Below are positions 24,395 to 43,325 of a DNA stretch of 64,000 nt, piece after piece; the stretch's first letter is position 1; each line of letters starts with the position of its first letter. The notes beneath the pieces were generated by a model. It was given only the letters and a program-made list of their open reading frames with translations. It was not told the origin of the DNA and did not search any database. The translations under genes and the position numbers were made by a program. The DNA comes from Allocoleopsis franciscana PCC 7113. GTDB taxonomy: Bacteria > Cyanobacteriota > Cyanobacteriia > Cyanobacteriales > Coleofasciculaceae. The stretch is from assembly GCF_000317515.1 (NCBI RefSeq), contig NC_019738.1:1339501-1403500 (forward strand). Direction: 5' to 3'.

Positions 24395-24532
24395 ACCCTT
24401 TCTATACTCTAGTCGCTGACCGTGCTACTCATCGATGAACTCCTCAATCACAAGTAACGGCGCGGCAGCTATGGATTCGCTTAGGCTTGTTTCCTTAAGA
24501 TTATGGATATCGTAATAGTTTGAAAACCTTAC

Positions 24533-24565
24533 AAAAAAAAATAGAGAGTCGCAAAAGTGACTCTC
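24533..24565 (-). terminator. intrinsic terminator after topA / small RNA copy A
   Basis: On the minus strand a 9-bp stem with a TTTT loop (24544-24565, with one G-U pair) precedes a run of nine T interrupted only by TA at its start. It ends topA transcription and that of the putative small RNA. Confidence 0.8.
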
Positions 24566-24626
24566 AATTATCAGGGTGCATCTACTAACCTTAGTATTAC
24601 ACTTAGGGGTGAGGGGTGTCACCCCC
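24533..24626 (-). ncRNA. putative small RNA, copy A (94-nt duplicated element)
   Basis: Read on the minus strand the element starts with a GGGGTGACACCCC hairpin (24613-24625), has a conserved single block with the palindrome TACTAAGGTTAGTA, and ends with a strong hairpin (GAGAGTCAC TTTT GCGACTCTC) followed by nine T, an intrinsic terminator. The middle 29 nt (24570-24598) are identical to copy B at 41984-42012. It begins about 40 bp after the topA stop codon on the same strand, so it could be a free transcript or a processed 3' end of topA mRNA. The family is not recognised. Confidence 0.5.
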
Positions 24627-24667
24627 TATTTATGAAGAAGCGATGAACTTTGACCAGAGCTAATTCA

Positions 24668-27340
24668 TCATTTCTTCTTCGTGCTCGTCGAAGCGGTTGT
24701 TTTTTTCTTCGTCGTCTTAGTGCCGGAAGATGTCCCCGTTGACTTACTCTTCGTTGAGCTGGTGGACTTGCGCGACTTGCTACCTGATTTCTTCGTAGAC
24801 TCCTTCGCGGATAAAAGCTCAACTGCCGCTTCCATCGTCATCGTTTCCACCGATTGCCCTTCTGGCAGAGAAACATTTGTCTTCCCATGCTTCACATAGG
24901 GGCCATAGGGGCCATCATAAATATTCACGGGTTCATCATCCTTGGGATGGGCACCCAGTTCTCGTAACGCCTTCTTGGTTTTGCCTGCACCAGCGCGTCC
25001 CTTCTTCGGTTCTGACAATAACTCTAATGCACGTTCTAGAGTAATTGTCAATACATTGTCATGGGATTTGAGCGATCGATAGTCTTTCCCCTCCTTGCCT
25101 TGGTCATGAACCACATAAGGGCCAAACCGTCCCAAACTGGCCTGAATTTTCCCCCCTGTCGCAGGATGGGCACCTAAAGTACGGGGCAGAGCCAAAAGAC
25201 CCAAAGCCATCTCCAAGGTCACATCCTCAATATTCACGCCCTTAGGTAAAGAAGCCTGTTTCGGCTTTTTGTTCTCCTCAGACACATCCCCCAATCGCAC
25301 ATAAGGGCCATAGGGGCCTCTCAAAACGTAAATCGGCTCACCCGTTTCTGGATGAAGTCCGACTTTATCCGGCCCTTCTGTTTTCTGCCGCAGCAGTATC
25401 TCTACTTGCTCAGGGTCAAGTTCGGCTGGCGTCAAGTCTTTGGGGATCGATGCCGTCACAACTCCATCGCCATTCTCGGCTTCGATGTAAGCACCAAACT
25501 TCCCGATCCGGACTTTCGCCACCAGGTTCTCCAGTTCAACGGTGCGGGCTTGATTGGGGTCAATCTGGCTTTCTTGTTCTTTAACCTGCGTCTCCAGCCC
25601 TTTCTCTCCTAAATAGAATTCCCGCAGGTAAGGTAGCCAATCCGCTTCCCCATTGGAAATTTCGTCAAGGGTTTGCTCCATTTTCGAGGTGAAACTGGTA
25701 TCCACCAGGTTGGGAAAATACTTTTCGAGTAAGCTGGTGACGGCAAAAGCAGTAAAGGTGGGCACTAAGGCGTTGCCGTTCATTTGGGCATAGCCTTTGT
25801 CCTGGATAGTGTCAATAATGCTGGCGTAGGTACTGGGACGCCCAATTCCTTCACTTTCCAGCATTTTCACCAAAGAGGCTTCGGTATAGCGGGCGGGAGG
25901 CTGGGTTTCATGACCATCCGCTTCGAGTTCACGGCAGTTAGGATGGTCGCCTACTTTGAGCGGTGGCAAAATCACTTCCTGGTCTTCTAACGCCGCTTCA
26001 GGGTCATCAGAGCCTTCAACGTAGGCACGTAAGTAACCGGGGAAGTCGATGCGCTTCCCACTCGAACGAAAACCCGCATCTTCAACTTGTAGCTGAACGG
26101 TGATTTGGGTTTGCCGGGAGTCCGCCATTTGGCAAGCCACCGTGCGCTTCCAAATCAGGTCATAGAGAGCAAGTTCTCGACCCCCCAAGCCGGTTTCTTT
26201 GGGAGTCCGGAACGTGCTACCTGCGGGGCGAATCGCTTCGTGGGCTTCTTGAGCGCCTTTGCTTTTGGTGGCGTACTGGCGGGGTTTGGGGCTGAGGTAT
26301 TGTTGACCGTACTTTTGCTCGACACAACTCCGTGCGGCGGCGATCGCTTGTTCGGATAAATGCACCGAGTCTGTCCGCATGTAGGTAATATACCCTTGTT
26401 CATACAGACTTTGAGCCGTTCGCATGGTGTCACGCGCCGACAAACGAAGTTTGCGGTTGGCTTCCTGTTGTAGGGTCGAAGTCGTAAACGGTGCCGAGGG
26501 TTTGCGGGTGACGGGACGTTCTTCTAAATCCGCTACCGTCCAGGTTTTATCCAGTAAGCGTTCTCGCAGTTCTCTGGCTTCGGCTTCACTGAGTAATCGA
26601 ACCTGCCGACCGGCGATAATTTGACCCGTGTTGGGGTCGAAATCAGCACCTGTTGCCACCTTCACACCACCGACGGTGACGAGTCGGGAATCAAAGGGAG
26701 TTTTACTCTGCTCTAAAATCGCCTTCAAGTCCCAGTAACTTCCCTGACGGAACGCTCGACGCTGGCGTTCTCTATTTACCAATAGGCGCACGGATACCGA
26801 CTGGACGCGACCGGCAGACAATCCCCAAGCAATTTTCTTCCACAGCAGAGGAGAGAGGGTGTAACCCACCAATCGGTCTAAAATCCGTCGGGTTTCTTGA
26901 GCGTGAACCAGTTGTTCATCAATATTACGGCAGTTTTTCAGCGCTTTCTTAATCGCTTCCTGGGTGATCTCATGAAACACCATCCGCTTCGTGGGGACTT
27001 TCGGCTTGAGCACTTGCAGCAAATGCCAACTGATGCTTTCCCCTTCCCGGTCTTCGTCTGTCGCCAGGACAAGCTCTGTCGCGTCTTTCAGGGCGTCTTT
27101 GAGCTGCTGAACAACTTTCTTTTTATCTTTGGGAATGACGTATATCGGTTCAAAGTTAGCTTCTACATTCACTCCCAACTGCGCCCATTTTTCTTCTTTC
27201 ATGGCAGCGGGAATTTCCGTGGCGGACTGAGGCAGATCGCGCACATGCCCCATCGATGCCTCAACGCGATAGTCAGAGGGCAAGTAATTGCGGATGGTAC
27301 GTGCTTTAGTGGGAGATTCAACGATAACAAGGGTTGACAT
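24668..27340 (-). CDS. topA: DNA topoisomerase I
   Basis: TopA relaxes negative supercoils through a single-strand break and a tyrosine link to DNA. The TOPRIM domain opens the protein ([20 protein letters not shown]) and has the acidic [10 protein letters not shown]. The active-site tyrosine lies in [10 protein letters not shown] (Tyr about 320). [14 protein letters not shown] and the later repeats [20 protein letters not shown] and [10 protein letters not shown] belong to the C-terminal topoisomerase repeats seen in cyanobacterial and actinobacterial enzymes. The last 45 residues are a Lys/Ser/Thr-rich tail, probably disordered and DNA-binding. No zinc-finger cysteines are visible. The 890-aa length is normal for the group. 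Confidence 0.97.
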
Positions 27341-27794
27341 AGCAACTTTTGGAAAAATAGCGGCTGGCTAAACAGTCAAATTGGATGAAGAGGGGGCGAA
27401 ATGTCAAGAGGGCTGATTCAAAACGATGTTCAGAGCCTGATCAACGAGAAGCGTCAGCACAGCGATTCCGCCCTGAGAATCGCCAGCCCTATTGCTAAAT
27501 GTAGCTTGAGCTCCTTGTCTCTACTTATAGCCGATATCAACGGCGACCCCCATCTCTGGGGATGGTGCCAGAATAAATGCCAAGCTCACTCAAGCGTGAA
27601 TCCTGGCTTGGAGCTTGGAGCTTTCCTGGGAAGATAAATTCATGCAACTCATTCAACAAGGCGATGTGTTTTACTATCTTTAGCACAGATTGTTAGTACA
27701 GTGGCTCCGTCAGAGGTCGGCTTCCCGCCCCTTTCTAGGAGCGTTAACATGAGAAACTGCCGAGAATTTTTCTGCTCGAAACATTAAATGCCTC
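27341..27794. other. intergenic region, nothing recognised
   Basis: About 450 bp between topA (its promoter side) and the end of the giant kinase gene. A 78-codon plus-strand frame has no ribosome binding site and no protein-like pattern. I see no repeat or RNA. Confidence 0.5.
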
Positions 27795-30700
27795 CTAAAA
27801 TTGTTTGAGAAATTCTCGAATTTGTTTTCCTTTAAACTCTTTAGCTAGTTCACGGAGGTGGGTCGCAAATGGTACCCATTGCGGATCTAATTCTTCCAAT
27901 TGAGTCGCCCGCTTAGCCAGTCCTCTGAGGTCACCCCTCCTCGCCATATCGAGTAAGGCAGCGACTTCTGGGGCAGGTGGAACAATGAATTGTGATTGTG
28001 AAATTTGAGATTGGGGATGAACCTCCTGTTGTTCTGGGCTATCGTTTGTTGTCTCTTCGTAAATCCATTCCAGTCCCAAATGAAGGCGTAATTTTTCTAA
28101 AAGCTCCGCTTCCCGAATTGGCTTGGGGAGAAAATCATCACAACCCACTTCCTGACTTTGCTGGCGATCGAAATTAAATACGCTAGCAGAGATGGCAATC
28201 ACTACTATATCTTTAAACTCTGGTAACGTCCTAAGGCGACGGGTCGCTTCAAACCCGTCCATCACAGGCATCACCAAATCCATAAATATTACATCAGGTT
28301 TAATCTCATGGGCTTTATTAAGAGCGTCTAAGCCATTGCTAACTTCAAACAGTTCAAACCCTAAAGGTTCTAGTATATTGACGAGGACAGAGCGGTTCAT
28401 CCACTTGTCATCAACGACTAAAACTTTGCGTTTATTACCTTTGAAAGCACTAATAGTCCGTTCCAAATCCTTAGCGAGATTATCTCTGAAGGCAACCTCC
28501 GTTACATCTAAATCAAACCAGAAAATACTGCCTTTACCTAAGATACTATTGACATTGATTGATGCATTCATCAATTCAATTAATTGACGGCTAATGGCTA
28601 GCCCCAATCCCGTTCCCTCAGTCTTGCGACTTTCCTCTCCCACTTGCTGAAATGGCAAAAAGATTTCTTCTAATTGCTGTTGTGCAATGCCGATGCCTGT
28701 ATCTTCTACCTGAAACCGCAGTTTCCCTTCCTGATACCCTACTTTGAACGTGACACTTCCTTTTTCCGTAAACTTGACAGCATTGCCCAGTAAGTTGATC
28801 AAAACTTGGCGCAACCGTTTTTCATCAGCTTGGATAGCTTGGGGAAGTGGGGAAAGAGTTTCGTAAATTAACTCGATACCCTTTTGCTCGGCACGGATAC
28901 GGCAGATTTCATAAATGCCATTAATAAATTCAGGAAAGTGAAATTCTTTGGGGTAAAGCTCCAATTTTCGAGCTTCAATTTTAGAGAGGTCTAAAATATC
29001 GTTGATCAGCGTCAGCAGATGTTCGCCGCACTGATGAATGATACCAATACCATTCTTTTGCTGTTCCGTTAAATTTTTATACTTTTTAAAGATTTGAGTG
29101 TAACCCAATATGCCATTGAGCGGAGTTCGGAGTTCGTGGCTCATATTAGCCAGGAATTCACTCTTGGCACGGTTGGCAGCTTCGGCGGCTTCTTCAGCTC
29201 GCTGGCGTTCGTGAATTTCTTGTTGCAGCCGTATATTGTTTTCCTGTAACTCTAAGGTGCGCTGTTCTACTTTAGTTTCCAAGTTTTGGAGAGCTTCTTC
29301 CAAATCTGTATAAAGGCTCGCATTTTCTATGGAGATTGCGGCTTGTGATGATAAAAGTGTTAATACTTCTAATCGGTCAGAAGTGAAGGCATCAGTGATT
29401 AAATTATTTTCTAAATAAAGAATACCGATGAGTTTACCTTGATGGATTAGTGGTGTACATAAAACTGATTTTGGTTGGTTGCTAAGGATGTAAATGTCTT
29501 TACTAAAGATGCTGGAAGCAGATGCATTTTTTAAAACTACATCTTTATGAGTTCTTTCTACATAATTAATGATAGATATAGGTAAATGATTGCCGTCGCC
29601 CACTGGAATTGATCGCAATAATATAACATCATTTTGTTCAAGGTCTATTTGTGCCTCTATAAAAAGCTGACCTGATTTATTTAAAATCAAAATTCCTTTT
29701 TCAGCACCAGCATTCTCAATAGCAATCCCTATTAATTGACTGAGCAAATTACTCAAAACTATTTCACCAGAAATAGCTTGAGAGGCTTTGATAACAGTAG
29801 CTAAGTCTAAGCTGGTACTAGTTCTAGACTGACTGGTAGTACTAGGAGAATTGGTTGTTTGGTTGACTGTAGTTTGGGTTCTGTTTCTGGCTGAGGTTCT
29901 AGGCAGCAATTGGGGATATTTTTCTTCTAAATCTTCAACTTTACGTTGAGCACCCCAAACTTGGTAGGCATAATGAGCCTTTTGCATATAAAGTTGGGCG
30001 ATGGTTTCTTTACCCCATGATAGATAAAACTTGGCAGCGAGTTCATTCGCGAGGGCTTCTTCGTTGATGTACTCATTTTCTTTCGCAAGGGCAATGGCTT
30101 TATCATACATTTCCATTGCCTCTACTTTTTCTCCTAAAACTCGATGTCGTTCTGCCTCAACGAGATAAAATTTATGTAAAAAATTCATCGGGGCATGATG
30201 CGCCCATTTTTGCATTTTTTCTTGATTAGCTTGTACTCTATCAAGAATGCATTGTTGTTGCGACTTCGCCGCCGCTTCGCTAACAGACTGTGAAGCCTCG
30301 GAATACATAGCGAAGCGAACCAGAGAATCATAAAAATAAAAGATAACAACTGTTAGTTGCCCTACGGATGCGCCGAAAGAACTTTCTATTTGAGGAATAA
30401 TCTTCAGCGCTTCTGGGTAATCTTCAAACTCATAATAAAGCACCAGTTTGTGCAAGGATAGGTAATGAATTGCTAGTTGATCGTTAGTTTGCTGATGGAG
30501 CAGCAGCATTTTCTCTTCGTCGTAGGCTTCTCCTTTTAGCTGGCATCGATTTGAGGCTCTTCCCAGCATGTTTAAGACAGTTTGCCAACAGATTTTTGTA
30601 TTATTGAGAGCTGTTTCCTGGCTAATGTTTTGAATTGCATCTGTATAAGTTGCAATGTCTCGTTCGAGTTGCGTTAGTGGCTGACCAACAAAAAACGAGT

Positions 30701-33700
30701 AATGGCTCCACACCATGATGGCGTAGCCAGCATACTCTAAATCTCCGGTTTCCAGCCCAGTAGAGAAAACCGACAGAAAAGAAGCTAAGGTATTCTTGGC
30801 ATGTTCTTTCCAATGTTGAACGCCAGAAGTCACTAAATGACAGGTCTTAGCTTCAATTTCTTTGGCATTTAACTTTGATACTAGACGTAGCGCCAATTGA
30901 CCGAACTCATATCCCCGCTCAATATCCCCTATAGCTCCACACAGAAGCAGACTATATACGGCATAGGCAAAAGGAGACACCGCAGCATTGCCATATTGAA
31001 CCGATAAATTGACCTGTTTGCACACCGTTAAAGGCACCAGTGAGGACACTGTAGAATAGCAAGCAGAAAATATACTTGATAGAATTCTGATCACCGCGAG
31101 TTGTTGCGGATTAGTCATTTCAGGAAGATCGATTAAATCCTTAATCCTCGTTGTGCTCAAAATTGTCGCCGTCTCTCCCAGCGCTTGTCCAATATCAGAT
31201 GGATTTGGTGAATTGGGAAACTCTATTCCCAATTGCTTTAACACTAGCAGTCCCGTATTCAGTGCTTCCAGCAGCTTGTTCTGTCCCATATAAGCTTGAA
31301 TCTGAACTTCGTACACTTTTACAGTGTCCAATAGAGTTTTGGCACAGTTTTGCACGATTTGGGCTAGTCTCTGCATTGCTTCAAAGTCACCATTCAGAAA
31401 TGCTGCCTCTGCTGCTTCAGTATGCAGCGATAATATTAGTTCGTACTCCGTATCCCAACTGAAATCTGCTAACAGTGCCAAACCCGCTTGCAAATATTTG
31501 GTAGCGGCAGCATGAGCCGATGCTGCTTTGGCTTTCTGTCCAGCCATTAAGTTAAGTTTGGCGATTTCAGTTCGTTCGGATTCATCGCTAATTAGTTCAA
31601 TTCCCAAGTTTAGATGATCGACAATTTCAAATATTTTTTCTAGCAGTGCCTCTGATTCAGTGTTTTGCCAGAGTAAACGACCAATTTGCAAATGAGTTGC
31701 TTGTTTAAATTGTTCATCAATGAGAGCATAAGCGGCTTGTTGCACGCGGTCATGGAGAAACTTAAATTCCAGGCTAACTAGATGTGTATCGATGATGTCT
31801 TCCGGTAGGCTTTTTAAGCCAGAAATAGGTAATATTAAGCCTTCCTGAATTGCTCCCCAAAGATGGCGATACGCTACCGCTGCCGACCGCTTGTAGATAA
31901 TCGAGAGAGTTTGTAAGTCAAAGGTGTTGCCAACACAAGCCGCCAACTGCAAAACCTGCTGTGTAGAGTCAGGCAGTTTTCGCAACTTCCGAATCATCAA
32001 CTCTACAACATTACCAGTAATACCCATCGCCTCAATGTTTGAGATATCCCATTGCCAAAAAGCTTGGCTGTCTTGGGACGGAGGGGTAAACGTTAACAGG
32101 TTTTCCTGATACAGAGTTTTGAGAAATTGATTAACAAAGAAAGGATTGCCAGAAGTTTTCCTGATTACTAATTCGGCTAAGGGTTTGACGGTAAGGGTAT
32201 TACTGTGTAGTGTGTCAGCAATTAGATTCCTAATATGGTCAAGTGCTAAGGGGGCTAAGATGATGTTATTAATAATGACACCTTGGGAACGAAGCGACTC
32301 AAGAGTAATCATTAAGGGATGCGCCCGATTAACTTCGTTATCTCGATACGCTCCAATGAAGAATAAATAGCCCGTTTCTGCATCTGTCATTATCACTTCT
32401 AGTAACTTCAGCGTTGCAGAATCAGTCCATTGCAAATCATCTAAAAAGATAACTAAAGGATGCTCTTGTGAGCAGAATACGCGGATGAAGTTTTGAAATA
32501 CTAAATTAAAACGGTTCTGTGCTTCGGTTGGCGCTAGTTCTGGAGCGGCTGGCTGCTTACCAATAATGAGTTCTACTTCCGGAACTACATCAATAATGAC
32601 TTGTGCATTTGTCCCAAGAACAGCTAAAATCTTTTCTCTCCATTGAGCGATTTGTGCTTCACTTTCAGTTAGTAGTTGCTTTACTAATGATTGAAAAGTA
32701 TCGATGAGAGCCGAGTAAGGAATATTACGTTGAAATTGGTCAAACTTACCGGAAATGAAGTAGCCCCGTGCCGCGACAATTGGTTTGTGAATTTCATTCA
32801 CTAAAGAAGATTTACCAATTCCGGAGTAGCCGGAAACAAGCATCATCTCAACCCCTCTTTGTTTTTGTGAGGGGTTACTGACTCGCTCAAAGGCATCCAT
32901 CAACAGACTAACTTCCTGTTCGCGTCCATACAGTTTCTGCGGAATATAAAATTGGCTAAATAAATCCAACTCTCCCACCTTAAAACGAGAAATCTCACCA
33001 GATGTTTGCAGCATCTTTAGACAAATCTCCAAATCAGCTTTAAGACCTAGCGCACTCTGATAGCGCTCTTCTGCTGTCTTGGCAAGTAATTTCATCACAA
33101 TCTCAGACAGCACCTCTGGAATTTCTGAATTTATAAGGTGGGGAGGTACTGGTGTTTTAGCAATATGACAGTGGACTAATTCCAGGGGGTCAGTTACTTC
33201 AAAGGGTAGGTGTCCCGTCAGCATTTCATAACAGGTAACGCCTAAAGAATAAAAGTCAGTTCGATAGTCAATTGAGCGATTCATCCTTCCCGTTTGTTCC
33301 GGCGACATGTAGGCAAGAGTCCCTTCAAGTACATTGGGATTAATTACGGTCTGATTTTCTTTCGACAAACAGGATGAAATGCTAAAATCTATAATATAAA
33401 CTTGACTTGTTTTAGCATTAATTAAAATATTGTGGGGCTTGATATCTTTATGAATAATGTTATTTTGATGAAGTTGAGCTAGGGTTGAAGCTAACTGAAT
33501 AGCAATTTGTAAAAAAAGGCTTAAGTCTAAACTTTTATCTGCAATCAAATTTTTCAGGGATTCTCCCCCCAAATCTGACAAAATTAATGCCAGCCCATTT
33601 TGATAGTTTTCTAACCCTAAGGGTTTAACAATTCCTTCTATCTCCAGGGATTGTAGTATTTGATACTCATGTCTTAATCGAGTTAGCTGTTCTAGAGTCG

Positions 33701-33830
33701 GATACTCAGCTTTGAGAGTTTTAATAATGACCGAAACTTGCTCTGACTCCCTGGAAGCCCGATAAACACAAGTAGTGGTACCTTCATAAAGGGTTTCGAG
33801 TAGATTGTAACCAACAATGGTGATACTCAT
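27795..33830 (-). CDS. giant Ser/Thr kinase - AAA ATPase - GAF - hybrid histidine kinase
   Basis: A 2011-aa signalling protein. Residues about 8-270 are a Ser/Thr kinase ([10 protein letters not shown] with Asp 129; [22 protein letters not shown]). Residues about 300-600 form an AAA-type ATPase ([13 protein letters not shown], Lys 340; [11 protein letters not shown]). About 700-1300 are helical repeats of TPR type. About 1340-1500 is a GAF sensor ([10 protein letters not shown]), followed by a coiled coil, a HisKA domain ([15 protein letters not shown], His 1565), a HATPase ([36 protein letters not shown]), a receiver domain ([18 protein letters not shown], Asp 1851) and a small C-terminal helical domain. 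The architecture is known in cyanobacteria (for example heterocyst-related kinases). The kinase subdomain usually DFG reads DFS, a point to check for activity. Confidence 0.95.
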
Positions 33831-34302
33831 TTTTACCTGGTAAACGGATGAGCTTGATAGGCGTAAGCTATTGGCTTATGCCGATGACAAGTTCTGGCGT
33901 TGCTAATTTAACATGCCGACACCCACTGCGTTTTCCACAGCCATGCAACCTACCTGTAAATCCATGGCCTTTTTAACACTCGCCCACTCAACTCTCCTGC
34001 TTTGAATCCTCCCTGTCTGGCGGGTGTGTTGGAGTGACATATTACTTTCGATTACGAAATTTTACTTTCAGTTACACAAGCGATCTATACCCCAGACAGG
34101 GGGAAAATTTGATGTTATTCCTAAACTTAAAGAAGAAAGCTTGTACCGCGTTCGCTCACCCCCTCACTCTCTGAATGGAAACGCGCTAAAGTATTACTAA
34201 AAGAGTAGGATAAACATGGGTATTATTTAGAGCTTTTCCCCTTTAATTAGCTAAAGATTTCACAGAATAAAATTGGAAAACCATAAAAAACAAGAGGTAT
34301 TA
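33831..34302. other. divergent promoter region between two signalling genes
   Basis: About 470 bp separate the two large sensor genes, which are transcribed away from each other. The DNA is AT-rich near the right gene. A short near-repeat (ATTACTTTCGATTACGAAA and ATTTTACTTTCAGTTACAC) is visible at about 34039-34077 and could be an operator. Nothing else is seen. Confidence 0.45.
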
Positions 34303-36669
34303 ATGAACTTTGAGCCTATAGAAAAAAGTGTCATATTACTTGTCGATGACACCCCCATTAACTTAGAAGTTTTGCTCGATTTGTTAGAGGATTCTGACTT
34401 CAATGTTGTAGTCGCTGAAGATGGAGAAAGTGCGATTGAAATGGCGGAATATGCTCCACCCGACTTGATTTTATTGGACGTACTGATGCCAGGAATGGAC
34501 GGGTTTGAGACTTGCCGTCGATTGAAAGCTAATCAAACCACCCAAGATATTCCTGTAATTTTTATGACTGCCCTGACTGAGAATGTGGATAAGGTCAAAG
34601 GGTTGAATCTTGGGGCAGTGGACTATATCACCAAACCGCTAGAGCATGAAGAAGTTTTAGCCCGCGTAAACATCCACTTGCGCTTGCGGCACCTAACGAA
34701 GAGACTCACAGAACAAAATGAGCAATTACAACAAGAAATCTCTGAGCGCCAGCGAGCACAAGAGGAACGAGAGCAAGCCTTTACAGCACTGCGGCAAAGT
34801 GAATCCCGGTTTAGGCGATTAGTTGAATCTAATATTATTGGGATTATTTGTACAGAACTTAACGGCAGCATCACCGATGCTAACGATGCCTTTCTACAAA
34901 TTGTAGGATACGAGCGCTCCGAACTCCTAAGAGGAAATTTGCGTTGGGACGACATGACTCCCTTAGAATATCGTGATTTGGATGAAAAGGCGATCGCCGA
35001 ATTAATCACTTCTGGAGTTTGTACCCCCTATGAGAAAGAATTTATTCGCTCTGATGGTAGCCACATTCCGATTATGATTGGAGCGGTTCTTTTAGAGGAG
35101 TCTCAACAGAGTGCAGTCGGTTTTGTCCTCGACCTCAGCGAACGTAAGATTGCCGAACAGAAAATCCGCGAACAAGCGGCTCTGCTCGATATCACGACAG
35201 ATGCAATTCTTGTGCGAGATTTAAACAGAAAAATCCGATTTTGGAACGAAGGAGCTGAACGTCTGTACGGATGGAAAGCCCAAGAAGTCATGGGTAAAGA
35301 TGCCCATGAGCTTCTCTATCGACGGGAAACCTTAGATCAACTCGAAGAAAGCTGGAAAAGTCTCGCTGAGTATGGCACGTGGCACAGTGAATTATATCAA
35401 TTTACCAAAGAAGGTAAAGAGATCATTGTTGCCAGCCGGTGGACATTAGTGCGCGATAAAAATGGGCAACCCAAATCCATTCTTACAGTCAACACTGATA
35501 TTACAGAGAAAAAACAACTTGAAGCGCAGTTTCTCCGAACCCAGCGAATGGATAGTCTTGGAACCCTAGCCAGCGGTATTGCTCACGACCTCAACAATGC
35601 GCTGACACCGATGATGATGGCAGCTCAACTTTTGGAATGCAAACTTCCGGATGAACAAAGCCAACAGTGGCTTTCGATCCTAGAAACCAATGTTAAACGT
35701 GCGGCAGATTTAGTCAAACAAGTGCTGTTATTTTCACGAGGAGTTGCGGGTAAGCACACTCCCTTAGAAGTAGGGTACTTAATAAAAGAAATCGAGAAAA
35801 TTGTTAAGCAAACATTTTCCAGAGCGATTGAAATTTGCAGTGAACTCCCTACACAAAACCTTTGGACTATTTCTGGCGATCTGACTCAGCTACACCAAGT
35901 ACTCATGAACCTCTGCGTTAATGCTCGTGATGCTATGCCAGATGGGGGTACCCTCCAGATTTCTGCCAGAAATTTCTGGGTTGATGCCCACTATGCCCAA
36001 ATGAATATTGAGGCTAAGGTTGGTCCCTACATTGTGATTACTGTATCCGATACAGGAACGGGAATTTCCAGAGAAATAATAGATAGAGTTTTTGAGCCAT
36101 TTTTCACGACAAAAGAAATAGGCAAAGGCACAGGACTGGGTCTTTCAACCGCGATTGGTATTATTAAAAGCCACGGCGGTTTTGTCAAAGTATTAAGCAA
36201 AGTGGGAAAAGGTACGCAATTTCAAGTTTACTTACCGGCAACGCCAACAACAAAGACCGATTGTCCCTCAGAAGAACATGAGGAATTACCCAGGGGGCAT
36301 GGAGAATTAATTCTCGTGGTCGATGACGAAGATTCAATTCGTGATATTACTAAAACCTTGCTAGAAACTTATGGCTACAAAGTTTTACTGGCTAGTGACG
36401 GGATTGAAGCAATCGCTCTGTATACACAAAATAAGGAAAAAATTAGTGTTGTGTTGATTGACATGATGATGCCAAATATAGATGGCCCAACGACAATCGG
36501 CGTCTTACAAAAAATTAACTCACAAGTCAAGATTATAGCTATTAGCGGACTTGTATCGAACCATAAGCTCAGTCAATTTCTGGGTAATAGCGTCAAAACC
36601 TTTTTGTCTAAGCCCTACACATCAGATGAATTGTTGAGAAACTTACAACTCGTTCTCAGCATAGACTAG
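34303..36669 (+). CDS. hybrid histidine kinase: REC-PAS-PAS-HisKA-HATPase-REC
   Basis: The ATG at 34303 was preferred to an upstream TTG because AGAGG precedes it. The 788-aa protein starts with a receiver domain (VILLVDDTPINLEVL; LLLDVLMPGMDGFETC, Asp 59), then a coiled coil, two PAS domains (from RRLVESNIIGIICTELNG and from ITTDAILVRDLNRKIRFWNEG), a HisKA (GTLASGIAHDLNNALTP, His 428), a HATPase (NLCVNARDAMPDGG, DTGTGI, GTGLGLSTAIG) and a C-terminal receiver (VVLIDMMMPNIDG, Asp 720). No membrane segment is seen, so it is cytoplasmic. It is divergent from the giant kinase and may act with it; no DNA-binding output domain is present. Confidence 0.95.
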   Translation: MNFEPIEKSVILLVDDTPINLEVLLDLLEDSDFNVVVAEDGESAIEMAEYAPPDLILLDVLMPGMDGFETCRRLKANQTTQDIPVIFMTALTENVDKVKGLNLGAVDYITKPLEHEEVLARVNIHLRLRHLTKRLTEQNEQLQQEISERQRAQEEREQAFTALRQSESRFRRLVESNIIGIICTELNGSITDANDAFLQIVGYERSELLRGNLRWDDMTPLEYRDLDEKAIAELITSGVCTPYEKEFIRSDGSHIPIMIGAVLLEESQQSAVGFVLDLSERKIAEQKIREQAALLDITTDAILVRDLNRKIRFWNEGAERLYGWKAQEVMGKDAHELLYRRETLDQLEESWKSLAEYGTWHSELYQFTKEGKEIIVASRWTLVRDKNGQPKSILTVNTDITEKKQLEAQFLRTQRMDSLGTLASGIAHDLNNALTPMMMAAQLLECKLPDEQSQQWLSILETNVKRAADLVKQVLLFSRGVAGKHTPLEVGYLIKEIEKIVKQTFSRAIEICSELPTQNLWTISGDLTQLHQVLMNLCVNARDAMPDGGTLQISARNFWVDAHYAQMNIEAKVGPYIVITVSDTGTGISREIIDRVFEPFFTTKEIGKGTGLGLSTAIGIIKSHGGFVKVLSKVGKGTQFQVYLPATPTTKTDCPSEEHEELPRGHGELILVVDDEDSIRDITKTLLETYGYKVLLASDGIEAIALYTQNKEKISVVLIDMMMPNIDGPTTIGVLQKINSQVKIIAISGLVSNHKLSQFLGNSVKTFLSKPYTSDELLRNLQLVLSID

Positions 36670-36891
36670 AAAATAGAGTAGATTAAGAGGGAGTTCCATT
36701 GCAAAGCTAAATTTTCTATTCGGAATCAACAACTTCAGAACACTGACAATAATATTGCTACTCCAACACACGAACACCACCTGACACAGCCCTCTAAAAT
36801 AAACTTGGCTGCTCAAGCGATGGCAATCACCGATATGATCAGAAAGTTAATGTTGAGACTAACATCACCATAGACAATACCAATAGAACCT

Positions 36892-38463
36892 ATGGATTTT
36901 GCCACTATTGCTGCCCAGCTCAATGCTGGGATAATTTTGCCAGAGGGAATTATACTGGCTACCCTCGTGCTGGTTTTATTGATTGACCTGATTTCGGGGA
37001 AAAGCGCTGCTCAGACACTGCCCTATGTGGCGATTGGCGGTCTTCTGCTTGCCGTAGTCGCCCTGTACTCCCAATGGGATGTTGCCGACCCTATTGCCTT
37101 TTTAGGGGAGTTCAACGGCGACGCCATGAGTATAGCGTTTCGCGGCATCATCGCCCTGTCAACGGCTGTAACAATTTTGATGTCGATTCGCTACGTACAG
37201 CAAGCTGGCACGTCTTTAGCAGAGTTTATCGGCATTTTGCTCAGTGCAACCTTGGGGGCGATGTTCCTGTCGGGAGCCAATGAGTTGGTGGCGATTTTTG
37301 TCTCCCTCGAAACATTAAGTATTTCATCGTACCTCTTGACAGGTTACATGAAACGTGACCCACGCTCTAATGAGGCGGCGTTGAAATACTTGCTGATTGG
37401 GGCATCGAGTTCAGCCGTCTTTCTCTATGGCATCTCCTTGTTGTACGGTTTGTCTGGAGGAGAGACGAACTTAAATGCGATCGCCACAAATGTCGCCGCT
37501 TTAGAAGCCGGTCAATCCCTAGGAATTTTAATTGCATTGGTGTTTGCGATCGCCGGGATTGCCTTCAAAATCTCAGCCGTACCCTTCCACCAATGGACGC
37601 CCGACGTTTACGAAGGGTCTCCCACTCCCGTAGTGGCTTTCCTCTCCGTCGGTTCCAAAGCCGCAGGTTTTGCCCTTGCCATTCGTTTAATGACCACCGC
37701 CTTCCCCTTGGTTACCGAACAGTGGCATTTTGTGTTCACCGCCTTAGCCATCTTGAGCCTGGTTTTAGGGAACGTCGTCGCCCTAACTCAAACCAGCATG
37801 AAGCGCCTGTTAGCTTATTCTTCCATCGCTCAAGCTGGGTTTGTCATGATTGGTCTGATTGCCGGCACAGATGCCGGTTACGCCAGCATGATTTTTTACC
37901 TGCTGATTTATTTATTCATGAACCTGGGCGGTTTTATCTGCGTGATTCTCTTCACCTTACGCACGGGAACTGACCAGATTAGCGAGTACGCGGGTTTATA
38001 TCAAAAAGACCCACTCTTAACGTTGGGATTGAGCATTTGTTTGCTTTCCCTAGGAGGAATTCCGCCGCTAGCAGGGTTCTTCGGCAAAATCTACTTGTTT
38101 TGGGCGGGTTGGCAAGCCGGACTGTATGGTTTAGTCATACTCGGTTTGCTGGCGAGTGTAGTTTCAATTTACTACTACATCCGCGTCGTCAAGATGATGG
38201 TCGTCAAAGAACCCCAAGAAATGTCCGACGCCGTGAAGAATTATCCCGAAATCCGTTGGAACCTGCCTGGAATGCGCCCCTTGCAAGTGGGTTTAGTCCT
38301 AACTGTGATTGCCACTACTCTGGCAGGGATTCTATCAAATCCCCTGTTTGAGTTGGCAAATAGTTCTGTTACCCGCACCCCAATGCTGCAACAAGCCATG
38401 ATTAGCCATCAGCAACCAACTGTCAGCATTCAACCGATTCAGAATGTAGACGCCCAGATTTAA
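36892..38463 (+). CDS. ndhB: NAD(P)H-quinone oxidoreductase subunit 2
   Basis: NdhB is a proton-pumping membrane subunit of the thylakoid NDH-1 complex, used in respiration, cyclic electron flow and CO2 uptake. The 523-aa protein has about fourteen transmembrane helices. Typical blocks are [77 protein letters not shown] and [18 protein letters not shown]; charged residues in mid-membrane (Glu in VSLETLSIS, Lys in GIAFKIS and SMKRLL) are as expected. It is a single gene followed by a clear terminator. Length is normal for cyanobacteria. Confidence 0.97.
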
Positions 38464-38503
38464 GACTCTCTTCTGTGAAAGTCTGAACTATTAAAAATGC
38501 AAG

Positions 38504-38536
38504 ACGCCTAACTCTATTGAGTCAGGCGTTTTTTTG
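38504..38536 (+). terminator. intrinsic terminator after ndhB
   Basis: ACGCCT-AACTC-TATT-GAGTC-AGGCGT forms an 11-bp stem (one mismatch) with a TATT loop, followed by seven T. It lies 41 bp after the ndhB stop codon. Confidence 0.92.
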
Positions 38537-38650
38537 ATTGGATTAAGCGGCAAAAAACGTTAGCTTATCCGCCAATGTTTTATATATAGCTGTCGCCATA
38601 AAGCTTAGGACAAATTGAACGGCTGTAAACGACCACGTACCAGTAAAAAA

Positions 38651-38756
38651 CCTTCTGCCTTCTGCCTTCTGCCTTCTGCCTTCTGCCTTCTGCCTTCTGC
38701 CTTCTGCCTTCTGCCTTCTGCCTTCTGCCTTCTGCCTTCTGCCTTCTGCCTTCTGC
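38651..38756. repeat. heptanucleotide tandem repeat, about 15 copies
   Basis: CCTTCTG is repeated about 15 times without visible variation over 106 bp. Heptamer STRR repeats of this sort are characteristic of cyanobacteria. On the minus strand it reads as a repetitive EGRRQKA frame, which is not taken as a gene. The perfect repetition suggests active slippage. Confidence 0.93.
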
Positions 38757-38775
38757 TATCACTTGACTTTTGAGA

Positions 38776-39147
38776 TTAATGAAACAATTTGCGTTTTTGA
38801 GGACAGTAATCAGAGCAATTCACCGCATTTTCAGTGAGAGCCATACCAGGATGAACCGCACACTGAAGATAAGGATTGCTGGAAAAGAACTGACAGTTCC
38901 GACAAGGAACTTGAGATATAGGCTCTAGACTAAAAACTTCAGAACGGACAACTGTAAAAATCGCCGACATCATCAGACTAAAGATCATCCAACCCAGGAC
39001 AACGTAAAAGGGATGATCAAACATCACGCTATTGGGCAAAATTATTCTATCCGGTTGAGCCTGATTGACTTGAACTTCGCTCTGAGTGCCCTGCTTAAAC
39101 TTTATTGCTCCTAGGGGAGATTGTTTTATAAATCCATTAGCCTGCAT
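38776..39147 (-). CDS. hypothetical membrane protein with cysteine cluster, 123 aa
   Basis: One membrane segment lies in the middle ([20 protein letters not shown], about residues 43-65). After it comes a compact cysteine-rich part: [16 protein letters not shown] and NCSDYCPQ, giving five or six cysteines plus a histidine that could hold a metal or Fe-S centre. The C-terminal motif is also found in short cyanobacterial proteins annotated as hypothetical. With one helix, the Cys domain may face the cytoplasm or the lumen. Function unknown. Confidence 0.72.
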
Positions 39148-39662
39148 ATTACTTCTTACTGGTCATCCGTATCTACGCTATGCGTTTTTCCGCTTGTACT
39201 GTGTCGAGTCCATTCCCCGGAAACATGCGAATTCGGCAAGAGAATGCTAAGGATTTAGACATAAGCCTTAATGCCTTTCCCTCAAGTGACGACTCAGGAC
39301 TTGACTCTTATAGGTATAGCCGAAGACAAATATAGAGGTCTCTGTCCAGAGTTTTACTTCTCATTTAGCTTTATATAACTAGAGGAATAGATGACCCAGA
39401 ACGAATGATTCAGAAGAACCTCTTTTTCTCTCTTATGTAGCCTCTGTGCCTGGAGGGGGATGCTGCGGTAAGCCGCTATGGGTCTAAGTAAAAAAAGCCA
39501 ATTTCATAACGAACAGGATTTCGCGGACTTAGATAGTTAACGGGTCGATACGATGATTCCTAATAGTTGTTTTTGGGTGGAACCAGGGCAGTAAAAACAC
39601 TTTCATTCCCTCCCCTGGCTCATGCCACAATAATTATTCCCTTCTCTCCAGCGTGTTCAAGA
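39148..39662. other. intergenic region, nothing recognised
   Basis: About 515 bp between divergent genes. It presumably holds both promoters. No hairpin, repeat or RNA stands out. A TTG-initiated extension of the downstream frame reaches back to 39567 but is not supported by a ribosome binding site. Confidence 0.45.
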
Positions 39663-40949
39663 GTGCAACTTAATGCCTTAATTTGGTGGATCAGTGGGTT
39701 GCTCCTGGCCTTACTGATACTGCTATTAGTGAGCCTGTATCTTCCGGGAGCCTTCTATAAAAAAGCTCAGTACAAGATAGAAGACGTTCCTGGCTTAGAG
39801 GAACCTCATTTTCCTCTCGCGATGATGGGCGTATCCGCCTCCCTGATTACCAACGGTTACCTAACAGACTCTTGGTTTGAAATCGATACCATTTATGCCG
39901 TCCGACTAGAAGCCATCAGGAGTGCCCGACAAACCATTCACTTCGAGACGTTTTACATGACTCCTGGGCGTCGCGCTAACGATTTCGCTGCCGCGCTTCA
40001 GGAACGAGCACAAGCCGGGGTTGAAGTTCAACTACTGGTTGATAGCTTCGGCGTGCACTCCATATCTAAGGCTTACTGGAAACAACTGCAAGCCGCCGGT
40101 GTTCAGGTTCGTTTCTTCCACCCATTCAGTTGGAGATCACCCTTGACTTACAACACCCGCACCCACCGGAAGCTACTTCTGATTGATGGGGACACGGCTT
40201 TTGTGGGAGGCATGGGCGTTTCTGATGACTGGGATGGCATCAAAAAAATAGGCGATACGGCTCCCTGGCTTGATTTCGAGGTTCGCTTGACTGGGGCAAT
40301 CGTGGTTATTTTGGAAGGTATTTTCATGCAGCACTGGCTCTATAGCGGCGGAGTTGCCAGACTAAAACCAGAAACGTTTTATCCAGCCTTAACCGGCGGT
40401 TCAACCATACTCGTCACACCCAGGAATGCGCCCTCTCCCCGTTCATCTGTTTATGCCCTCTTCTACACCAGTGTCCTCGCGGCAAAACAGCGGATTTGGA
40501 TCGCTAGTCCTTACTTTCTCCCGGATGCCAACGCCCGTAAGGCACTATTGAACGCTAAAACCAGCGGAGTTGATGTGCGTATCCTCACCGTAGGCTCACA
40601 TAACGACAAGCAGATGGTTTACTATGCCGTCCGCGAACGTTACCGCGATTTGCTCAAAGCCGACATTGAAATCTATGAGTACCACCCCAGCATGATGCAC
40701 GCCAAGGTGCTATTGATTGATGATCGCTGGGTGAGCACTGGAAGCACCAACTTCGATCCGCGCAGCCTCTTTCACAACGACGAACTCCATCTTTCCCTAG
40801 CTGAGCCTAATTTTGGGGAATTCGTCGAGGGCTTTTTCTGGCGTGCATTCTCTAAAAGCCGTCGTATTGATTGGGCAAAGTGGCAAACACGCCCCCTATG
40901 GCATCGTGTCCTAGGTCGGCTGGCTCTATTGATCCGCTGGCAGTTGTGA
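39663..40949 (+). CDS. cardiolipin synthase-like phospholipase D protein
   Basis: The protein has an N-terminal membrane helix (LIWWISGLLLALLILLLVSL) and two PLD active sites: HRKLLLIDGDTAFVGG and HAKVLLIDDRWVSTGSTN. This is the layout of bacterial cardiolipin synthases, which join two phosphatidylglycerol molecules. The RSARQTIHFETFYMTPG and FNFDPRSLFHNDE-like (STNFDPRSL, HNDEL) blocks fit. The start is uncertain: the GTG chosen gives about 428 aa and places the helix at the N-terminus; a TTG at 39567 would add 32 residues unlike a signal. A metallophosphoesterase gene follows after 39 bp, so an operon is possible. Cyanobacteria often lack cardiolipin, so another phospholipid or nucleic acid substrate cannot be excluded. 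Confidence 0.85.
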   Translation: MQLNALIWWISGLLLALLILLLVSLYLPGAFYKKAQYKIEDVPGLEEPHFPLAMMGVSASLITNGYLTDSWFEIDTIYAVRLEAIRSARQTIHFETFYMTPGRRANDFAAALQERAQAGVEVQLLVDSFGVHSISKAYWKQLQAAGVQVRFFHPFSWRSPLTYNTRTHRKLLLIDGDTAFVGGMGVSDDWDGIKKIGDTAPWLDFEVRLTGAIVVILEGIFMQHWLYSGGVARLKPETFYPALTGGSTILVTPRNAPSPRSSVYALFYTSVLAAKQRIWIASPYFLPDANARKALLNAKTSGVDVRILTVGSHNDKQMVYYAVRERYRDLLKADIEIYEYHPSMMHAKVLLIDDRWVSTGSTNFDPRSLFHNDELHLSLAEPNFGEFVEGFFWRAFSKSRRIDWAKWQTRPLWHRVLGRLALLIRWQL

Positions 40950-40988
40950 TCAGCTTCCTGGCCTGTCGTTAGTCTGACATCTTGCATC

Positions 40989-41876
40989 ATGAATATATTC
41001 TCAGAACCGTTGACCATCGAGCATCTAACTATGGCGATCGCAGGATTGCCAGAACCTCTACAAAATTCAAAACTCGTACACCTAACAGATTTTCACTTCG
41101 ATGGTCTACTGCTGACTGAACCGTTGCTCAATCAGGTCATTGAAGCGAGTAATCAGGTTAATCCCGATATCATTGTCCTCACGGGTGACTTTGTTACCCA
41201 TTCTCCCAAACCCATTCATCAACTGGCGCGGTTGCTCAATCGTTTGCAAAGTCGTGCTGGCATCTATGCAGTACTAGGAAATCATGACCTTTATTTTCCC
41301 TACTCCAAAGGGGAAATCACCACAGCCCTCACAGATGTGGGCATTCAAGTCTTGTGGAATCAAGTTGTCTATCCTTTAGGAGCAGGATTAGCCCTCGTTG
41401 GACTCCCTGACTTTTGGTCGCCTGAATTCAATCCAGCTTTGGTGATGAATCAGTTAGATCCCAGCCTTCCCCGCATTGTCTTGTCTCACAATCCAGATAG
41501 TGCAGAGACATTGCAGCAATGGCGTGTGGATTTGCAACTATCCGGTCATACTCACGGCGGGCAGATTGTGATGCCAGGGATGGGTTCTGTGCCCACTTGG
41601 ATTCATGCCTCACGAGAGAGAATTCCTAAATTCCTATGGCCTTGGATACCCTTTCTCGAAGCCAAGTGGCCTAAAGTTGTAAAACATTGGCAATGGGCGC
41701 AGGGTTTGCATCAAGTTGGAACCAACTATCTGTATGTGAATCGGGGTTTGGGGACTTTTCCGCCTGGACGCTGGAATTGTCCGCCAGAACTCACGGTGAT
41801 TACTCTAGTTGAGGCGGCGACAAAGGCTGAGGCGGGTTTGCACAGACAAGTTTCAGCGGCATCCTCCAAGCGCTGA
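40989..41876 (+). CDS. metallophosphoesterase
   Basis: A calcineurin-like phosphoesterase of the YkuE/YaeI type. The metal-binding motifs are in order: LVHLTDFHFDG (DxH), IIVLTGDFVTH (GD), VLGNHDLYF (GNHD), and near the C-terminus LSHNPD and LSGHTHGGQI (GHTHGG). These hold two metal ions for phosphoester hydrolysis. The related enzymes act on lipid precursors such as UDP-diacylglucosamine or on other phosphoesters. There is no membrane helix. It follows the PLD gene by 39 bp on the same strand, which would fit a shared role in phospholipid turnover, but this is inference. Confidence 0.9.
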   Translation: MNIFSEPLTIEHLTMAIAGLPEPLQNSKLVHLTDFHFDGLLLTEPLLNQVIEASNQVNPDIIVLTGDFVTHSPKPIHQLARLLNRLQSRAGIYAVLGNHDLYFPYSKGEITTALTDVGIQVLWNQVVYPLGAGLALVGLPDFWSPEFNPALVMNQLDPSLPRIVLSHNPDSAETLQQWRVDLQLSGHTHGGQIVMPGMGSVPTWIHASRERIPKFLWPWIPFLEAKWPKVVKHWQWAQGLHQVGTNYLYVNRGLGTFPPGRWNCPPELTVITLVEAATKAEAGLHRQVSAASSKR

Positions 41877-41946
41877 CTCAATTGGGGCTGTGCCCCAAAC
41901 AAAGCGCAACCGTAACATCGCGCCGACTTTTCGGGTAAATCCAAAC

Positions 41947-41977
41947 AAAAAAAAGAGAGCCACTTGTGGCGACTCTC
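41947..41977 (-). terminator. intrinsic terminator of small RNA copy B
   Basis: On the minus strand GAGAG...GCCAC-AA-GTGGC...CTCTC forms a long stem with a 2-nt bulge, followed by eight T. It can also end read-through from the peptidoglycan-binding gene. Confidence 0.8.
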
Positions 41978-42040
41978 CCGATCATCAGGGTGCATCTACT
42001 AACCTTAGTATTGCATCTGGGGGTGGGGGGTGTCACCCCA
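41947..42040 (-). ncRNA. putative small RNA, copy B (94-nt duplicated element)
   Basis: Same plan as copy A on the minus strand: GGGGTGACACCCC hairpin (42027-42039), the identical 29-nt core (41984-42012) with palindrome TACTAAGGTTAGTA, and a terminator hairpin (GAGAGTCGCCAC...GTGGCTCTC) followed by eight T. The terminator stem differs in sequence from copy A but keeps its pairing, which suggests selection on structure. AT-rich sequence (TTTAAATTAT) just before the first hairpin could be a -10 box. It lies about 150 bp after the peptidoglycan-binding gene on the same strand. Confidence 0.5.
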
Positions 42041-42193: not shown

Positions 42194-42727
42194 TTAGACT
42201 CTTCGCCATTTGCGGAAATCAAACGTCCACCGAGTCTGTTTTGGAGGAGTGGGTAGGGGGGGATTCCCTTGCAGAACAGTCCAAGTCGTAGGGTCTACCA
42301 AGCCTGTAGATTTTAACTTATGTCTCTCCTGAAAAGCCATGACGGCCTGCTGGGTAGAAGCCCCAAAGTTGCCATTGCAAGGGACGTTATACCCCTGGAT
42401 TTGCAACAGTCCTTGTAAGTAACGGACATCAGCTCCTGTGCGACCGATGCTGAGCCGGCGGGTTCCTGGCTTAACGGTTGTTTTTAAAGCCGCCCAAGTT
42501 TTTGAACCCACAATGCCGTCAACTCTCAGTTCTTGTTGCCGTTGATAGGCAGCGACGGCCTTTTCTGTTAAACTGCCAAACTCCCCATCGACTCGGAGAT
42601 TAAACCCATGAGCGCGTAACAGCTCTTGCAATTCAATCACAGCAGGCCCCGAATCCCAGGGATATACCTTTGGACTGATCAGGGTAGCATTGCCAACGGT
42701 ATTAACCAGTTCTGAATTGGTATGCAT
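42194..42727 (-). CDS. peptidoglycan-binding protein with two PG_binding_1 domains
   Basis: The ATG at 42727 (MHTNSELVN) has a GGAGG site 8 nt upstream; a longer frame from 42829 lacks one. Two copies of the three-helix peptidoglycan-binding domain are visible: SGPAVIELQELLRAHGFNL...VDGEFGSLTEKAV and GADVRYLQGLLQIQGYNV...CNGNFGASTQQAV (quoted in part), each closing with VDGIVGSKTW or STGLVDPTTW. No signal peptide is seen, which is odd for a wall-binding protein. No catalytic domain is attached, so it may be an adaptor. The final 20 residues are Pro/Trp-rich. Confidence 0.88.
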   Translation of the reverse strand: MHTNSELVNTVGNATLISPKVYPWDSGPAVIELQELLRAHGFNLRVDGEFGSLTEKAVAAYQRQQELRVDGIVGSKTWAALKTTVKPGTRRLSIGRTGADVRYLQGLLQIQGYNVPCNGNFGASTQQAVMAFQERHKLKSTGLVDPTTWTVLQGNPPLPTPPKQTRWTFDFRKWRRV

Positions 42728-43325
42728 GAATGCATCCTCCCTTACAATATGGGTCAGTCCCAGACGCATCTGGGTTTCCGTCATCAGTACGGCGAACGAT
42801 AAGATTTCAGTTACAGCACGATGCGACAAAATTTCTAGGGTCTCCTGATCGAGCCTAGCCCTAGAGACACTAGTGAGTGGTTTGCTACCAATATCGCCAT
42901 TTTCTAATCGCGGGTAAAGCCTCTAGATAGAGGTTTTACATGACCTATTCATGGTGATGTTCACAGCAAATAACCCCCAGGGAGCAGATGCTATATTTGC
43001 GATGGTTCTCTAGAAGATATAACCAGCTTAGCGGCAGTGCAGTTTTATGCCAATGCGCGCTTGGAATCGGCTAATTTTTTTGATTTACCTTTAAAAACTC
43101 TACAACTTCATGGTCTATTGCACAAGTTTTGACGAATACTCAAATCCCAACTCTCTTACTATCCAGTGCCTCTATAATGAATTGACTCTTCACCATAAGT
43201 AGATAAAATCCCACTTAAAAATGAGATGTAGCGTGTGCTAAGCGAAGCTGTCAGCCACCGAACAGTAAGGTTCAGTGCATTACTCTGGCGAAGAGAGCAT
43301 CCTACAGTACATTGGGTTGTCTTAC
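42728..43325. other. intergenic region, nothing recognised
   Basis: About 600 bp. Several overlapping short frames exist on both strands, but none has a ribosome binding site or protein-like pattern. No hairpin or repeat stands out. Confidence 0.45.

Follow-up and report, generated by a model that had tools for sequence, protein, structure and literature searches.

The window analysed here is a 64,000-nt stretch of Allocoleopsis franciscana PCC 7113 (contig NC_019738.1, positions 1,339,501 to 1,403,500; C1:1339501-1403500 of a host assembly of 7.97 Mb in 9 contigs). It holds two 94-nt elements on the minus strand, copy A at 24533-24626 and copy B at 41947-42040, each comprising a palindrome (GGGGTGACACCCC), a 29-nt block identical in both copies (AATACTAAGGTTAGTAGATGCACCCTGAT) and a terminator closed by a run of 8-9 T, as the original prediction had described and as the sequence confirmed. 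Comparison with relatives upheld the further claim that each is a small RNA (sRNA) gene with its own terminator, under selection; we found it to be related to NsiR1 and to carry a putative HetR-type operator. Copy A opens with this operator (24613-24625, kept in relatives; TAAATAGGGGGTGACACCCCTCA with its flanks, 24632-24610), followed by an extended -10 box (AATACT at 24593-24598, with TG at 24601-24600, in TGTAATACT), placed from aligned relatives. The predicted NsiR1-type sRNA of about 53 nt (24533-24585) starts with the conserved core GTAGATGCACCCTGAT (24585-24570) and ends in a terminator hairpin (24544-24565; -11.7 kcal/mol, z -3.07) and its T-run (24541-24533). Copy B has the same layout, with the putative operator at 42027-42039, AATACT at 42007-42012 and TG at 42015-42014 (TGCAATACT, in the register of aligned relatives), the predicted sRNA with its terminal T-run at 41947-41999 (RF02399 match, G000:C1:1381447-1381501, G000 being the host) and the terminator hairpin at 41979-41953 (-15.2 kcal/mol, z -1.40). 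Folding bore out that the two terminator stems differ in sequence and that both pair. The copies follow unrelated genes, as first claimed, and these lie outside the sRNA genes on the minus strand: topA upstream of copy A (24668-27340; TIGR01051 topA_bact, 831.2 bits) and a peptidoglycan-binding protein upstream of copy B (PG_binding_1, 42194-42829; PF01471, 124.9 bits).

Part of the earlier description had to be revised. The 94 nt had been taken as one RNA, but its 5' "hairpin" precedes the -10 box and shows the behaviour of an operator site in the DNA. A second palindrome, TACTAAGGTTAGTA, had been pointed out within the 29-nt block and turned out to be the junction of the -10 box and the predicted RNA start, and not a conserved feature of the RNA. 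It has 2 exact matches in the window and 4 with up to 2 mismatches (0.19 expected), the extra two being opposite-strand readings of the same places, and it was present in 0 of 104 relatives read. These relatives were found with a covariance model of the RNA part only (R1), which holds no upstream sequence, at E <= 1e-6; identical copies and those that deviate from the core were excluded, whereby 4 of the 108 R1 places were missed and read later.

The family, not recognized at first, could be named. At permissive thresholds, RF02399 (NsiR1) matched copy A with 36.6 bits (E 7e-6, model positions 1-60 of 60) and copy B with 35.1 bits, and since the gathering threshold is 39 bits, a scan of the window at gathering thresholds returned no match. 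By Rfam's rule the two copies thus form an NsiR1-related class and are not members. The match to copy A spans 24587-24533, so that its start falls within the 29-nt block and not on the palindrome. Yfr1, which the original prediction had already set aside, was rejected, being absent from the 6 Rfam matches obtained up to E 10 on 24433-24726. NsiR1 of Nostoc is reported to be HetR-dependent, to be produced in heterocysts by 12 tandem copies that have DIF1 promoters, to block hetF translation by an antisense mechanism and to lower the hetP homologue alr3234 (PMC9045159), and an NsiR1-like RNA has been noted in non-heterocystous Limnospira (PMC8400943).

The two copies are indeed present as a pair of repeats in the window, but they belong to a larger family. 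Searching the host DNA with copy A yielded 9 places, of which two are on small contigs (38 and 29 kb); with the NsiR1 family model there were 22, 12 of them above the cut-off. These fall into two classes that share the 5' core. Class I comprises 14 distinct host copies with a DIF1-like TCC[GT]GA centred at about -37 from the G of GATGCACCC. Class II comprises 9 copies, A and B included, with G4-N5-C4 at the same distance; TCC[GT]GA is absent from the 60 nt upstream of all nine and present at all 14 class I copies. The host class II copies scored by RF02399 were all below the Rfam cut-off (8/8), so threshold-based annotation would miss them. Class II is treated here as a separate, NsiR1-related class of sRNA.

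Relatives of the elements occur widely in other cyanobacterial genomes. The class II RNA has the 5' end GUAGAUGCACCCUGAU, whose first 16 nt are nearly invariant: 15 of 16 core positions did not vary in 56 aligned relatives, a figure partly fixed by the search pattern. Downstream of it, all 105 distinct class II bodies, which had been pre-selected for a T-run, form at least 6 pairs before that run, with a mean fold of -15.4 kcal/mol as compared with -5.8 kcal/mol in shuffles. Here and below, shuffles preserve only the mononucleotide composition, and related genomes do not count as independent. Compensatory stem changes, named at the outset as a sign that would support an RNA, were found in the terminator as two-sided changes at 3 of the 4 pairs modelled by RNAalifold; as only these 4 were modelled, the evidence for structure comes mostly from single folds. 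In the 53-nt form of copy A the first 20 nt are unpaired, and copy B shows a weak alternative pairing there. With transcript ends predicted from sequence, the RNA would start with GUAGAUGC. The identical 5' end suggests, by analogy, an overlap of targets with NsiR1. Perfect complements of the RNA 5' end (CAGGGTGCATC) occur at 23 places in the host, 22 of them at the sRNA copies. The remaining one (C1:506151) is intergenic, some 40 nt past one open reading frame (ORF) and 200 nt ahead of another, and was rejected as an unconvincing target.

Among the 104 copies, the extended -10 has TG at -19/-18 (T 85%, G 82%) and reads T, A, T, A, N, T from -16 to -11, the five fixed positions being 80-92% conserved; TGnTAnnnT is found in 72 copies, and the aligned majority reads TG-N-TATA-N-T. 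To its 5' side, operator and DIF1 exchange at one and the same promoter place. A census with the RNA family model in the host and 10 chosen genomes (8 of them taken because of a strict class II pattern) yielded 73 distinct copies after merging those with the same 70-nt core: 54 with TCC[GT]GA, 17 with G4-N5-C4, none with both and 2 with neither. The two kinds of element are centred at almost the same point, DIF1 lying at -39.5 to -34.5 from the same G (45/54 at -37.5 or -36.5) and the operator at -38 to -36 in 16/17, with one at -30. The host contributes 23 copies to the census as against 22 RF02399 places, L004 having come only from the DNA search, and three stretches are without a row (L181, with TCCGGA but two core mismatches, L185 and L191). 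Similarly, none of the 104 class II copies, all from HetR genomes, has DIF1 in the -35 stretch.

The operator itself resembles known HetR sites. In PMC4192349, the hetP site is given as GAGGGGTCTAACCCCTC (consensus tnantngnGGGtcaanCCCanca, structural requirement GGGnnnnnCCC) and the hetZ site as GGGTCTAgCCCagCA, and DIF+ (TCCGGA) is centred near -35. GGGnnnnnCCC lies upstream of the RNA in both window copies, as part of a G4-N5-C4 palindrome centred about 34 bp before the predicted start. Copy A fits 14 of the 17 letters of the hetP-derived consensus, a score reached nowhere else on either strand of the window, where four other positions score 13; the flanks of copy B fit less well, and it is not among the positions with at least 13/17. 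Among relatives, 102/104 copies score at least 6/8 on G4/C4 (1.8% of shuffles), and GGG-N5-CCC is exact within the scanned stretch in 78/104 (0.14% of shuffles). GGGT-N4-CCC occurs in 66/104 copies (0.03 expected from shuffles) and GGGT-N4-CCC-N2-CA in 40/104 (0.0 expected), the downstream C and A at +13/+14 being present in 76% and 77% of copies. One relative (L261, 1 of 104) carries the hetP core GGGTCTAACCCCTC exactly. The flanks, which the search pattern leaves free, are also biased: among 107 named class II sites, reduced to 100 distinct ones, 59 have T at -4 and 74 have G at -2, while further upstream the background for these bases is 24% and 12%. Three of the four places read later in HetR genomes (L270, L281, L284) score 6-7/8 on G4/C4 and the fourth, a second copy in L241, scores 4/8.

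Class II co-occurs with HetR. We found HetR_C in 80 of 386 cyanobacterial genomes, and all 77 genomes with the strict class I pattern and all 12 with the strict class II pattern were among these 80. The strict class II pattern (12/386) under-counts badly and was discarded as a gauge of distribution: the RNA-only model detected class II in 76 of the 79 other HetR genomes, 60 of them with a single match, and gave none in G039, G064 and G320, where stricter filters were in use. Both classes were found in 73/79, and the HetR genomes without the class I pattern (G058, G083, G135) have class II. Among 60 HetR-lacking genomes, picked by hand from 306 and mainly of the same order and class, 9 carry the class II RNA (G005, G229 and seven of genus g23). 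A protein search in these nine returned no HetR (best E 0.61), with five HetR genomes searched alongside giving 5.5e-102 or better. The operator is present in only one of the nine (G229) and in none of the other eight. G005 has the RNA between gatB and argJ, a location shared with many HetR genomes, and retains both RNA and -10 box but lacks the operator. No other single finding argues as strongly for the palindrome being a HetR-linked regulator site that lies outside the RNA. In the g23 genomes (L290-L292, L316-L319) we observed that the sRNA body and a TG-N-TAnnnT-like box are kept and that the upstream sequence is different; gatB and argJ were not found near the RNA in the three longer g23 stretches (L290-L292).

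Named carriers of the strict class II pattern (99 stretches) include Symploca, Leptolyngbya, Coleofasciculus, Moorena, Spirulina, Phormidesmis, Roseofilum, Brasilonema and Scytonema. A preferred location is apparent, with 57 of these 99 stretches lying at most 1.5 kb from gatB or argJ and a gatB and/or argJ neighbour in 24 of 30 loci of a wider set. The host has a tandem class II pair at this locus too (C1:6282540-6282763; GatB and ArgJ confirmed); copies A and B, being away from it, look like dispersed extras. Tandem copies were also seen in L097, L107, L029, L098 and L113, the Symploca assembly (L097) having six at exactly 200-bp spacing, and a member of the host's family (G360) has 10 matches of the RNA-only model. 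Two genomes belonging to the same genus have a class II match close to hetR (G199 C10:137142-137192, at about 4.7 kb, and G284 C1:1709162-1709218); hetR of Nodularia spumigena CCY9414 is reported to start at 1713443 (PMC3610870).

The host has hetR (G000 C1:5407050-5407286, E 2.7e-43; protein read) and a nifH match above cut-off (TIGR01287, 466.6 bits). At one shared locus the closest named DNA was that of Symplocastrum torsivum (84%), an uncultured Coleofasciculus (81%) and Symploca (81%), and the host would appear to be a filamentous, non-heterocystous relative of these. Some of its other sites deserve mention. Two class II copies (L002, G000 C5:20333-20427, and L003, G000 C4:26254-26348) each stand immediately before an XRE-type HTH_3 gene, the two genes being similar; next comes a DUF499 gene in one case and a GTPase-type gene in the other. 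At L139 (G000 C1:7414166), GGGGTAACACCCC is followed by TGTAATAATGTG at about class II spacing and without the sRNA core, ahead of a CHASE2 protein, which may represent a relic or a reused class II promoter. L128 (G000 C1:888918), with GAGGGGTCAAACCCCTC, one base off the hetP 17-mer, precedes ORFs of unknown role and is a possible further HetR target. The other GGGGTNNNACCCC sites of the host, inspected by eye and without a HetZ/HetP family search, pointed to neither hetP nor hetZ.

We consider it likely that each 94-nt element is a self-contained sRNA gene of the NsiR1 kind switched by HetR through the operator. In the mechanism that we infer, HetR, which the host and almost all tested carriers of the operator have, would bind the palindrome and switch the class II promoter, most likely as an activator sitting where a -35 box would be, and the RNA, like NsiR1, may pair through its predicted 5' end with the translation starts of target mRNAs. 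Class II would then be wired like hetZ and hetP, and the two NsiR1 classes would be driven from two tiers of one cascade; DIF1 is reported to depend on HetZ (PMC7377430). A broader proposal, which we regard as evenly balanced, is that a HetR-operated sRNA of the NsiR1 class belongs to an ancestral HetR core predating heterocysts, forming a tier under direct HetR control alongside that of DIF1/HetZ, both having arisen by swapping one -35 element before the same RNA.

Several observations weigh against the explanation of the elements as HetR-switched sRNA genes. G229 has the operator GGGGTGTCACCCA, between gatB and argJ, yet no HetR by profile or protein search, the genome being a draft in 320 contigs rated 99% complete. 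The RNA occurs without HetR in three genera (g5, g23, g43) and is therefore not strictly a HetR partner, and since only a phylogenetic subset has HetR, the co-occurrence does not count as independent evidence. Prochloron and Cyanothece are unicellular genera, and 2 of the 99 named stretches are labelled with these names (L051 and L073, respectively). In HetR genomes, 2 of the 104 copies and 1 of the 4 read later lack a recognizable operator, and the operator middle of copies A and B (TGACA) is unlike the TCTAA of hetP. Finally, the full 94-nt stretch folds better than shuffles (-33.4 kcal/mol, z -5.1, and -35.4 kcal/mol, z -3.3), as a transcribed 5' hairpin would. This fold, which probably misled the original prediction, counts against our explanation and is outweighed by the comparisons with relatives.

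That fold, together with the conserved GGGG/CCCC arms, is what a single RNA of about 94 nt made of 5' hairpin, middle block and terminator has in its favour. We hold such an RNA to be very improbable, since an extended -10 stands at a fixed distance between palindrome and RNA, the sister NsiR1 genes carry DIF1 in the palindrome's place, eight of nine HetR-lacking carriers keep the RNA without the palindrome, the junction palindrome is missing from relatives, and the arms are broken without compensation in some of them, e.g. GGGTATTACTCC (L215). A transposon-like or repetitive extragenic palindromic (REP)-like DNA repeat with no RNA product could explain the nine dispersed host copies, two of them on small contigs, and tandem arrays such as that of L097. 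It was rejected and is the least credible account of the elements, given that promoter, RNA and terminator are conserved as a unit, most HetR genomes with the RNA have a single match and the gatB/argJ neighbourhood recurs.

The identity of the regulator leaves somewhat more room. Sites of the CRP family have the geometry GGTGA-N6-TCACC, and response regulators of the OmpR type bind repeats spaced by 11 bp. Copy A does hold GGTGA-N6-TCACC within GGGGTGACACCCCTCACCCC, an 11-bp-spaced TT[CT]A repeat stands just upstream of some copies and G229 keeps the operator without a detectable HetR, all of which would fit another regulator of either type. In relatives, however, what is conserved is a core of GGG(G)T and CCCC that stand 5 bp apart and have varying inner bases, and sequences such as GGGGTCAGACCCC break the CRP-type half site and keep G4-N5-C4; moreover, the HetR consensus of hetZ and hetP explains the downstream CA, and the operator tracks HetR. 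We therefore rejected a CRP-family site as the principal explanation and view another regulator as an unlikely rival. The direct repeat itself (TT[CT]A-N7-TT[ACT]A, about -90 to -43 from GATG, in L177, L189 and L198-L287) was found before the operator in 27/104 copies, compared with 1.8 in shuffles; it resembles a response-regulator site, and a second input is possible.

Within the HetR explanation, and overlapping with it in likelihood, lies a more doubtful variant in which HetR binds and represses, the RNA being released when HetR is low or titrated by PatS/PatX peptides; PatX is reported from all HetR-containing cyanobacteria (PMC7761841). Such a role would suit an operator placed over the -35 region of an extended -10 promoter, and HetR-lacking genomes keep the TG-N-TAnnnT-like box. 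The hetZ site of Nodularia lies about one helical turn further upstream, so HetR could repress class II, and derepression of alr2242 in a hetR mutant has been reported (PMC4192349). Activation by HetR nevertheless seems likelier, because DIF1, an activating element, holds the same place in the sister genes (PMC7377430).

NsiR1, its multiple copies, its HetR dependence and its DIF1 promoters are already known. In the papers and passages that our searches covered, we found no published NsiR1 class with a HetR-type operator or near-universal pairing with HetR; Table S3 of PMC4734099 could list class II. To our knowledge, the regulatory targets of HetR in cyanobacteria that never form heterocysts are an open question. 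How HetR controls DIF1 promoters has likewise been posed as an open question (PMC7377430). One RNA family whose promoters hold, at one and the same place, a HetR-type site or else DIF1 offers a small, comparable pair of promoters for both questions, and the class II promoter might serve as a reporter of HetR activity in non-heterocystous filaments. If the ancestral core is real, class II would be among the most widespread direct HetR targets and would provide a missing handle on the role of HetR in filaments without heterocysts.

Among known promoter elements, DIF2 is mentioned together with DIF1 among the motifs of early HetR-dependent promoters (PMC10287535), and it may or may not be the same site as the class II operator. 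DIF1 (DIF+) promoters share with class II the distance from the RNA start, the kind of downstream RNA and a place in the HetR cascade. They differ in that DIF1 is a TCCGGA hexamer, reported to go with a -10 unlike TATAAT (PMC6133370), whereas class II has the extended TG-N-TATA-N-T. The hetP and hetZ HetR sites have in common with the class II operator the GGG-T-N4-CCC core, CA three to four bases downstream of CCC, and A at -6 and T at -4 as the commonest flank bases. In contrast to them, class II has variable inner bases, usually not TCTAA, and its operator, predicted to drive an sRNA and not a protein gene, lies at about -34, compared with the -45 derived for hetZ from a 40-nt stretch, the Nodularia site being located 56-17 nt before the start (PMC3610870). 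The closest likeness is to NsiR1 itself (RF02399), the tandem array upstream of hetF in Nostoc sp. PCC 7120: an RNA of about 55-60 nt with the same 5' end and a terminator hairpin, often in several copies each with its own promoter, and mostly in HetR-bearing cyanobacteria. Class II departs from it in having a HetR-type operator in place of DIF1, a different terminator stem (consensus GGGAGAGTC.../...GGCTCTCC), an occurrence that extends to some HetR-lacking genomes and a usual position next to gatB or argJ.

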